This document shows positions 335-2,113 of a DNA stretch of 35,539 bases, in pieces (within the stretch, counting starts at the first letter, position 1; each line of letters begins with the position of its first letter). Both the position numbers and the translations under genes were made by a program. The notes beneath the pieces were generated by a model. It did not search any database and was not told where the DNA came from. It saw nothing but the letters and a program-made list of their open reading frames with translations. The stretch comes from Thermaceae bacterium (GTDB taxonomy: Bacteria; Deinococcota; Deinococci; Deinococcales; Marinithermaceae), in contig WFXV01000052.1 in assembly GCA_015490435.1 (NCBI GenBank), forward strand, positions 1-35,539, in the 5' to 3' direction.

Positions 335-703
335 ATGGTCCGGGGCATTCGCGGCGCCATCACGGTGGACGAGGACACCCCCGAGGCGATCCACTCCGCC
401 ACCCGCGAGCTCCTCCGCGAGATCGTGGCGCAAAACGGCATCGAAAGCTTCGAGGAGTTCGCCGCCATCATCTTCACCGTCACCGAGGACCTCTCCTCCG
501 CCTTCCCCGCCGAGGCCGCCCGCCAGCTCGGGATGCACCGCGTCCCCCTGCTCTCGGCCCGCGAGGTTCCGGTGCCGGGGAGCCTGCCCCGGGTTATCCG
601 GGTGCTCGCGCTCTGGAACACCGAAAAGCCCCAGGACGCGATCCGCCACGTCTACCTCCGCGAGGCCAAGAAGCTCCGCCCCGACCTGGAAAGCGCCCAG
701 TAG
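335..703 (+). CDS. aroH: Chorismate mutase, AroH class
   Basis: MVRGIRGAITVDEDTPEAIHSATRELLREIVAQNGI...AAIIFTVTEDLSSAFPAEAARQLG...VPLL typical AroH; internal ATG of the 227..703 ORF chosen. Confidence 0.92.
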   Translation: MVRGIRGAITVDEDTPEAIHSATRELLREIVAQNGIESFEEFAAIIFTVTEDLSSAFPAEAARQLGMHRVPLLSAREVPVPGSLPRVIRVLALWNTEKPQDAIRHVYLREAKKLRPDLESAQ

Positions 704-704
704 C

Positions 705-732
705 TTGACACCCCGGACCCGGGGCGCATAAG
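705..732 (+). promoter_or_regulatory. Putative promoter upstream of the AspRS2 leader (TTGACA-N16-CATAAG)
   Basis: Consensus -35 TTGACA 705-710; -10-like CATAAG 727-732; leader ATG 11 nt further on. Confidence 0.6.
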
Positions 733-743
733 CTTGCAGCAAG

Positions 744-773
744 ATGCGCTGGGCCCGCAACAATAACGCCTGA
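744..773 (+). CDS. Attenuator leader peptide MRWARNNNA (three consecutive Asn codons)
   Basis: ATG CGC TGG GCC CGC AAC AAT AAC GCC TGA, directly upstream of an antiterminator/terminator pair and the AspRS2 gene. Confidence 0.75.
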   Translation: MRWARNNNA

Positions 774-774
774 C

Positions 775-796
775 GGGGGAAGGTCCCGCTTCCCCC
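775..796 (+). promoter_or_regulatory. Putative antiterminator hairpin (GGGGGAAG / CTTCCCCC)
   Basis: 775-782 pairs perfectly with 789-796, which overlaps the 5' arm of the terminator. Confidence 0.7.
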
Positions 797-823
797 CGGT
801 CGCCCGTGGACCGGGGGTTTTTT
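793..823 (+). terminator. Intrinsic attenuator terminator upstream of AspRS2
   Basis: CCCCCGGTC (793-801) gcccgtg GACCGGGGG (809-817) followed by TTTTTT (818-823); perfect 9-bp stem. Confidence 0.85.
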
Positions 824-844
824 CGGGCCCAAGAGGGGGAAACG

Positions 845-2113
845 ATGCGCGTACTGGTGAGCGAACTCCCAAAGCACGAGTGCGAGGAGGTCGAGGTCTG
901 GGGCTGGCTCCACTGGCGGCGCGACCTCGGTGGGATCCAGTTCGCCCTGATCCGCGACCGGAGCAGCGTGGTCCAGGTGGTGCTCCCGGGCGGGGTCCGG
1001 CTGCCGCTGCCCGAGTCGGTGGTGAAGGCCCGGGGCAAGGTGGTGAAAAGCGAGAAGGCCCCGGGCGGCTTCGAGATCCACAGCGAGGGCCTCGAGCTCC
1101 TTGCCCCGGCGGAAAAGCCCACCCCGGTCGAGATTCCGAAGGAGGAGTGGCGGGCAAACCCCGAGACCCTGCTCACCTACCGCTACGTCACCCTCCGCGG
1201 GGAGAAGGCCCGCGCCCCCCTCAAGATCCAGGCGGCGCTGGTCCGGGGCTTCCGCAAGTACCTTGACTCCCAGGGCTTCACCGAGATCTTCACCCCGAAG
1301 ATCGTCAAGGCCGGTGCCGAGGGCGGCTCCAACCTCTTCGAGGTGGACTACTTCGGGGAGCCCGCCTACCTTGCCCAAAGCCCCCAGCTCTACAAGCAAA
1401 TCATGGTCGGGGTCTACGAGCGGGTCTACGAGGTGGCCCCGGTCTGGCGCGCCGAGGAGCACGCGACCAGCCGCCACCTGAACGAGTACCTCTCCCTCGA
1501 CGTCGAAATGGGCTTCATCGAGGACGAGGAGGACGTGATGGCGCTCGAGGAGGAGCTCATCCAGGCGATGCTGGAAGAGGCGAAAACGAGCGCCGCCCGC
1601 GAGATCGAGCTCCTCGGCGCCGAGTGGCCCAAAGTGCCGAAGACCTTCCCCCGCGTCCCCTACGCCGAGGCCAAGAAGATCGTGAAAGAGCTCGGCGTCG
1701 GCATGGGCGCCGACCTGAACGACGCCGCCGAACGCGCCCTCGGGGAATACTTCTCGGAAAAATACGGCACCGACTTCATTTTCGTGGTGGACTACCCCGA
1801 GGAGGTCCGGCCCTTTTACACCATGCCGAAAGAGGGCGGCCTGACCCGGGGCTACGACCTGCTCTTTAGGGGCCTTGAGATCACCTCGGGCGGCCAGCGC
1901 ATCCACCAACCTGAGCTCATCGTCCAGCAGCTCGAGAAAAAGGGCATGAACGTGGAGGCCTTCAAGGACTACATCGAGGTCTTCCGCTACGGCATGCCGC
2001 CGCACGGGGGATTCGCCATCGGCGCCGAGCGCTTCACCCAAAAGCTCCTCGGCCTCCCCAACGTCCGCTACGCCCGCGCCTTCCCCCGCGACCGCCACCG
2101 GGTGGCGCCCTAA
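845..2113 (+). CDS. aspS2: Aspartyl-tRNA(Asx) synthetase, archaeal-type/non-discriminating (AspRS2-like)
   Basis: Class II aaRS; EIPKEEWRANPETLLTYRYVTLRGEKARAPLKIQAALVRGFRKYL, EGGSNLFEVDYF, LEITSGGQRIH, GGFAIGAERFTQKLLGLPNVRYARAFPRDRHR; strongly like T. thermophilus AspRS2 from memory. Confidence 0.9.
   Translation: MRVLVSELPKHECEEVEVWGWLHWRRDLGGIQFALIRDRSSVVQVVLPGGVRLPLPESVVKARGKVVKSEKAPGGFEIHSEGLELLAPAEKPTPVEIPKEEWRANPETLLTYRYVTLRGEKARAPLKIQAALVRGFRKYLDSQGFTEIFTPKIVKAGAEGGSNLFEVDYFGEPAYLAQSPQLYKQIMVGVYERVYEVAPVWRAEEHATSRHLNEYLSLDVEMGFIEDEEDVMALEEELIQAMLEEAKTSAAREIELLGAEWPKVPKTFPRVPYAEAKKIVKELGVGMGADLNDAAERALGEYFSEKYGTDFIFVVDYPEEVRPFYTMPKEGGLTRGYDLLFRGLEITSGGQRIHQPELIVQQLEKKGMNVEAFKDYIEVFRYGMPPHGGFAIGAERFTQKLLGLPNVRYARAFPRDRHRVAP

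Follow-up and report, generated by a model that had tools for sequence, protein, structure and literature searches.

A predicted transcription attenuator with an Asn/Asp-codon leader peptide upstream of the non-discriminating aspartyl-tRNA synthetase gene in Deinococcota

Introduction

The formation of asparagine on tRNA is classically illustrated by Thermus and Deinococcus. The locus described here bears on how the non-discriminating aspartyl-tRNA synthetase (AspRS2) of such bacteria is regulated. Searches of the main text of open-access papers yielded no account of a leader peptide for Asn or Asp, nor one of how AspRS2 is regulated in Deinococcota; the AspRS2 leader is unmentioned in the main text of a leader-gene survey (PMC4833913) and of a premature-terminator survey (PMC2965389). 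Here, we report on the DNA preceding the AspRS2 gene in a metagenome-assembled genome (G000, family f1) and in its relatives, and we propose, with a probability of roughly 0.85, that the gene is controlled by a ribosome-mediated transcription attenuator that contains an Asn/Asp leader peptide.

Results and discussion

Organization of the AspRS2 locus

The window, that is, the whole stretch of 35,539 nucleotides that was analysed, encodes a protein that scores 561.6 bits against NF003483 (cut-off 353) and 420.3 bits against TIGR00458, the profile of non-discriminating AspRS (cut-off 368.4). These scores bear out the gene assignment made in a first-pass annotation of the same DNA. That annotation had also placed a promoter, a short ORF with Asn codons, two hairpins and a run of six T ahead of the gene and had read them as an attenuator; every one of these elements was recovered in place, as was AspRS2 itself (Table 1), while the -10 box is an addition of the present analysis. 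Among the 43 ATG-initiated mini-ORFs of 5–14 codons on both strands of the window, the leader ORF is the only one that contains NN or three consecutive Asn/Asp codons. It is also the sole match, on either strand of the 35.5 kb, to a rule that combines promoter, ATG and mini-ORF.

Table 1. Features of the AspRS2 locus in the window
Feature	Position	Strand	Basis
Chorismate mutase type I, upstream neighbour, outside the element	335–703	+	PF07736, 7.6e-46
-35 box of the leader promoter, TTGACA	705–710	+	Read from sequence; TTGACN in relatives
-10 box, TAAGCT, 18 nt past the -35 box	729–734	+	Read from sequence; TANNNT kept in relatives
Leader ORF, MRWARNNNA*, probably leaderless	744–773 (ATG at 744, TGA to 773)	+	Homologues by rule in 91/95 genomes
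Control codons AAC AAT AAC (Asn-Asn-Asn)	759–767	+	Read from sequence
S1, antiterminator 5' arm, GGGGGAAG	775–782	+	Complementary to CTTCCCCC, 789–796
S2, antiterminator 3' arm (CTTCCCCC, 789–796) overlapping terminator 5' arm (CCCCCGGTC, 793–801)	789–801	+	
Predicted intrinsic terminator, 9-bp stem, 7-nt loop, T6 tail (818–823); 3' arm S3 (GACCGGGGG, 809–817)	793–823	+	
Putative Shine-Dalgarno of AspRS2, GAGGGGG	833–839	+	Read from sequence
AspRS2, non-discriminating aspartate--tRNA(Asn) ligase, 422 aa	845–2,113	+	Profile matches NF003483, TIGR00458

Conservation of the leader ORF and its codons

DNA upstream of AspRS2 was obtained from 95 of 112 Deinococcota genomes, belonging to five families (f1–f5), and was searched with a codon-blind rule consisting of a TTGAC-like box, 15–19 nt, TANNNT and the first ATG. 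A mini-ORF behind a promoter of its own, the latter judged by sequence only, precedes AspRS2 in 91 of the 95 genomes. The four genomes that the rule missed include G021, which has VQVFNVDSRDDDNF with a GTG start, and G110, whose contig-truncated leader reads ...RDDDNRGLGA. The peptides found include MRWARNNNA in the window as well as MRGLLNNDR, MALAASRNNDT, MRLPQGNDA, MLRTDNNS, MLRRRDDNP, MKCFFNNSADDDN, MTHLAFSDDNSGSGRLGA and MRAAARNFNDNNDRLRAA, together with MCPRLLNNG, which likewise stands ahead of AspRS2 in T. parvatiensis (L043).

The two promoter boxes are separated by 17 or 18 nt in all 91 leaders, under a scoring rule that favoured 17 nt, and the leader ATG invariably lies 7–11 nt past the end of the -10 box (9 nt in the window). 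Given this distance, the 5' UTR would measure roughly 0–5 nt, making the ORF leaderless or nearly so. At most three of the five positions of GGAGG are matched before the leader ATG in 82 of the 91 leaders. Genes with a TANNNT box shortly before the start codon and no Shine-Dalgarno sequence have been classed as leaderless, and such genes are estimated at about 40% in Deinococcus-Thermus (PMC3160421). The AspRS2 leader displays both features, and we regard its ORF as probably leaderless.

Asn is present in 90 of the 91 mini-ORFs found by the rule, and adjacent Asn/Asp codons occur in 82. Counted by genus, adjacent Asn/Asp codons were found in 22 of 25, against a mean of 0.9 and a maximum of 4 in shuffles. 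Asn/Asp codons as such are concentrated in the reading frame of the leader, where they make up 85 of 391 codons, as opposed to 8 of 366 and 6 of 366 in the other two frames. Synonymous codons replace one another (AAC 61, AAT 83, GAC 84 and GAT 31), and the differences in leader length among genomes amount to whole codons. The confinement of Asn/Asp codons to one frame, combined with the interchange of synonyms, is the signature of selection acting on ribosome-read codons. Comparative genomics strongly supports the earlier attenuator reading through a conserved ORF, its codons and, as described below, its hairpins. The comparison that the first-pass annotation had proposed, for Asn enrichment and paired hairpins in related genomes, yielded both across the order.

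A few genomes show reduced versions of the leader. Those of G063 (L138), G070 (L137), G032 (L164) and G072 (L142) are down to one Asn codon, possibly with a loss of control or an altered sensitivity. The leader of G111 (L183) is degenerate and has one Asn codon. G017 (L196) has no such Asn codon; the leader is missing there, and the DNA upstream of AspRS2 appears to be coding.

Two mutually exclusive hairpins

A three-segment layout, in which S2 pairs with S1 as well as with S3, is common to all lineages. The S1/S2/S3 segments read GGGGG / CCCCCGGTC / GACCGGGGG in f1, GGGGGT / ACCCCCGATAC / GTATCGGGGGT in g12 (Meiothermus-like, the genus name being inferred) and CTCGGGG / CCCCGAGG / CCTCGGGG in most of f5. 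Other f5 genomes carry different sets, namely GCTTCGGG / CCCGAAGC / GCTTCGGG in G090, TTGGGGT / ACCCCAA / TTGGGGT in G074 and CCCGGGG / CCCCGGG / CCCGGGG in G107. In 88 of 89 leaders, the S1:S2 pairing shares 4 nt or more with the terminator. In the window, the overlap of the two arms within S2 makes the hairpins sterically exclusive, in agreement with the first reading of this DNA.

Since a MAFFT alignment was register-shifted in the C/G runs, co-variation was assessed with segment-anchored counts and swap tests; G038 was left out of the analyses of segment geometry, co-variation and folding occupancy. The apical pairs of the terminator stem show compensatory changes in relatives. Among f5 genera, S1 pairs less well with a swapped S2 than with the S2 of the same leader (p = 2e-4), and this also holds over all lineages. 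The swap test between genera was not significant in f1/f4 (p = 0.34), where the G-run that makes up S1 leaves it little power, and S1 complementarity alone is often no better there than in shuffles. The antiterminator is backed by co-variation in f5, and none that is significant was found in the window's own family.

The geometry of S1 and the codons is preserved. In the window, S1 begins 16 nt beyond the start of the first Asn codon and 4 nt beyond the start of the stop codon; throughout f1, the corresponding distances are 15–16 nt (from the first control codon) and 3–4 nt. Measured from the start of the stop codon, f1 and f4 together span 2–6 nt, and in f5 S1 lies within the last codons preceding the stop. 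The expected footprint of a stalled ribosome ends just short of the S1 start in f1.

Folding and the proposed mechanism

In the mechanism that we propose, RNA polymerase would start approximately at the leader ATG, and a ribosome would enter the mini-ORF directly, in leaderless fashion. When charged tRNA(Asn) or tRNA(Asp) is short, this ribosome would stall on the Asn/Asp codons, and S1, situated 15–16 nt downstream and just outside the stalled ribosome, would capture S2 on its emergence. With S2 captured, the terminator would not form in time and AspRS2 would be made, giving more Asp-tRNA(Asn) and, through GatCAB, more Asn-tRNA(Asn). A ribosome terminating at the leader stop codon would, with the geometry of f1, cover S1.

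The complete transcript of the window folds with the terminator 1.6–3.2 kcal/mol better than the antiterminator at 37–75 °C, whether a ribosome is stalled or not. At equilibrium, the predicted hairpin occupancies of f1 and f4 leaders were nearly the same for either position of the ribosome, and a strong equilibrium switch was seen in only 7 of 27 f5 leaders. For the f5 genomes G084 and G097, the equilibrium values are 0.03 stalled versus 0.99 at the stop and 0.15 versus 0.99, respectively. Until S3 has been transcribed, the stalled state in the window folds best into the antiterminator, at -17.2 kcal/mol at 37 °C and -9.3 kcal/mol at 65 °C. Given that the terminator is favoured at equilibrium even with a stalled ribosome, the switch must be kinetic, operating by capture. 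The spacing of S1 fits the stall and stop geometry suggested at first pass; equilibrium folding favours the terminator in both ribosome states.

T-rich tails follow the hairpin in the window and in most f1, f4 (outside Thermus) and f5 leaders, and no T-run was found after the hairpin in leaders of the genus Thermus, where the output step may differ. Thermus leaders such as L125, L118 and L130 have a hairpin of about -30 kcal/mol with no T-run behind it. It is conceivable that the leader peptide is real and that control is mainly translational or due to ribosome occupancy, the hairpin hindering or re-initiation assisting AspRS2 synthesis, particularly in Thermus. The Thermus hairpin without a T-run and the nearness of the hairpin end to the Shine-Dalgarno of AspRS2 are in line with such control, for which a general re-initiation proposal exists (PMC4833913). 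The tails of the other lineages argue against it, and by inspection the arms of the hairpin are spent in the stem and leave the Shine-Dalgarno uncovered. We consider translational control unlikely and favour transcription attenuation.

Asn and Asp codons as the proposed sensor

The leaders contain 144 Asn and 115 Asp codons out of 1058. Leaders of f1 and Thermus have mainly NN or ND, and those of g12 and f5 mainly DNN or DDN. The original proposal considered Asn alone; in most lineages, Asp codons belong to the predicted sensor as well. The tRNAs that decode Asp and Asn codons are the two substrates aspartylated by a non-discriminating AspRS. We give even odds to a two-tRNA sensor, in which the charging levels of tRNA(Asn) and tRNA(Asp) are both read by the leader, so that one peptide monitors both AspRS products; on this view, Deinococcota and Melainabacteria share one solution, equivalent to the two-codon T-box of Clostridia but built on a leader peptide.

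Two other accounts of the codon content were considered and dropped. Queuosine-tRNA is common to the codons of Asn, Asp, His and Tyr; sensing of this modification is unsupported, with 12 His and 5 Tyr among the 1058 leader codons. An association of Asp codons with genomes in which AspRS2 is the sole AspRS was rejected, as AspRS1 was detected in 108 and AsnRS in 106 of the 112 genomes, in every genus.

Stalling might be caused by the nascent peptide instead of codon hunger, either as an arrest peptide or by acidic pausing of the EttA type. Ribosomes of E. coli pause at early acidic pairs, and replacing Asp with Asn reduces pausing (PMC11282234); many of the leaders have an early DD. The free interchange of Asn and Asp, the unconserved residues ahead of the cluster and the complete lack of acidic residues in the window leader all speak against this cause, which we regard as very improbable, and the codons themselves stay the favoured signal. 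Equally, it is scarcely credible that the gene upstream simply ends in a common terminator beside which an Asn-rich mini-ORF lies by chance, with no regulation: a lone terminator-like hairpin is indeed expected in such GC-rich DNA (1 found in the window versus 0.7 expected by chance) and the minimum free energy of 739–850 is unremarkable (z = 0.2), but conservation is phylum-wide, the enrichment is specific to frame and codon, the co-variation tests contradict this reading and the promoter comes after the upstream gene but before the hairpin. The significance of the element stems from its conservation among relatives and not from the single window sequence.

Asparagine synthesis in f1 and specificity of the leader

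Genomes of f1 have GatB, AsnRS and the bacterial AspRS1. AsnA was not found in f1 genomes, nor was a full-length AsnB; only PP-loop-sized fragments matched Asn synthase, with less than 30 bits, and none matched TIGR01536. As some of these genomes are incomplete, the absence rests on several of them jointly. Given the lack of AsnA and AsnB and the presence of GatB, the gene content suggests that AspRS2 with GatCAB is probably the only asparagine synthesis route of f1. The AspRS2 and GatCAB route of T. thermophilus represents the same situation (PMC4206432).

With the same rule, no Asn/Asp leader was detected at the AsnRS, AspRS1 and gatB loci of f1, the upstream region being incomplete at some of them. 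A restriction of the AspRS2 leader to genomes without asparagine synthetase was rejected, given that AsnB-type matches occur in 36 of the 112 genomes, many of which carry the leader.

AspRS2 loci in other phyla

A leader ORF of the same design was also found ahead of AspRS2 in two Melainabacteria (L074:2735–2881 and L065:2740–2886). It has 48 codons, including AAC AAT AAT AAT GAC AAT GAT AAT AAT (NNNNDNDNN). After the codon run comes TTCTTGCGGTT, which is identical to the 3' arm of the terminator and gives an exact 11-nt S1/S3 repeat.

A T-box (Rfam RF00230) was identified in 10 of 11 Bacillota AspRS2 loci tested, directly upstream of the gene (L054, L056, L060, L063, L070, L077, L078, L083, L085 and L097). 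At L054, another T-box lies on the downstream side of AspRS2. These T-boxes match the clostridial T-box control of tRNA-dependent amidation, which Saad et al. are said to have described in 2012 (in J Biol Chem) and 2013. That a tRNA- or ligand-binding RNA of this kind, T-box or riboswitch, takes the place of a leader-peptide switch in Deinococcota as it does in Bacillota is a reading to which we attach next to no weight, as RF00230 was found neither in the window nor in L043, L045, L051 and L053, no Rfam family reached the gathering threshold in four Deinococcota loci, the window gave only sub-threshold matches (E 0.3–0.6), the leader is only about 100 nt long and its codons are frame-specific.

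Relation to known attenuators and implications

The attenuator of E. coli pheST has an aminoacyl-tRNA synthetase as its target, and the ilv and thr attenuators of the same species have several kinds of control codon per leader. The AspRS2 leader also has more than one kind of control codon; unlike in ilv and thr, these correspond to the pair of tRNAs served by a single non-discriminating synthetase. In the trp and his attenuators, a short leader ORF rich in cognate codons is combined with a competing antiterminator and intrinsic terminator (PMC1183508). The AspRS2 leader has the same arrangement as trp, his and pheST, sharing with the last a synthetase target, and differs from the three in its Asn/Asp codons, its AspRS target, its apparently leaderless ORF and its occurrence in Deinococcota. 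In addition, a separate pause or protector hairpin was not identified in the AspRS2 leader. Leaderless attenuators of Actinobacteria (e.g. in C. glutamicum) likewise have the leader-peptide ATG at or near the transcript start, and they differ from the AspRS2 leader in amino acids, genes and phylum. The clostridial T-box, too, places the pathway of a non-discriminating AspRS under the control of tRNA status; it binds the tRNA directly, whereas the sensor in Deinococcota would be a translated leader peptide.

Attenuation offers a phylum-wide and testable answer to the question of how AspRS2 is regulated, in which its output would follow charged tRNA(Asn), and probably tRNA(Asp), via the leader peptide. 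It would constitute an Asn/Asp-specific attenuator of an AspRS gene that is conserved across a phylum, and the same pathway would then be served by different RNA sensors, a T-box in Clostridia and a leader peptide in Deinococcota. The leader ORFs of 7–11 codons in f1 and in Thermus/Meiothermus-like genomes may also provide minimal models of leaderless translation coupled to transcription in thermophiles.
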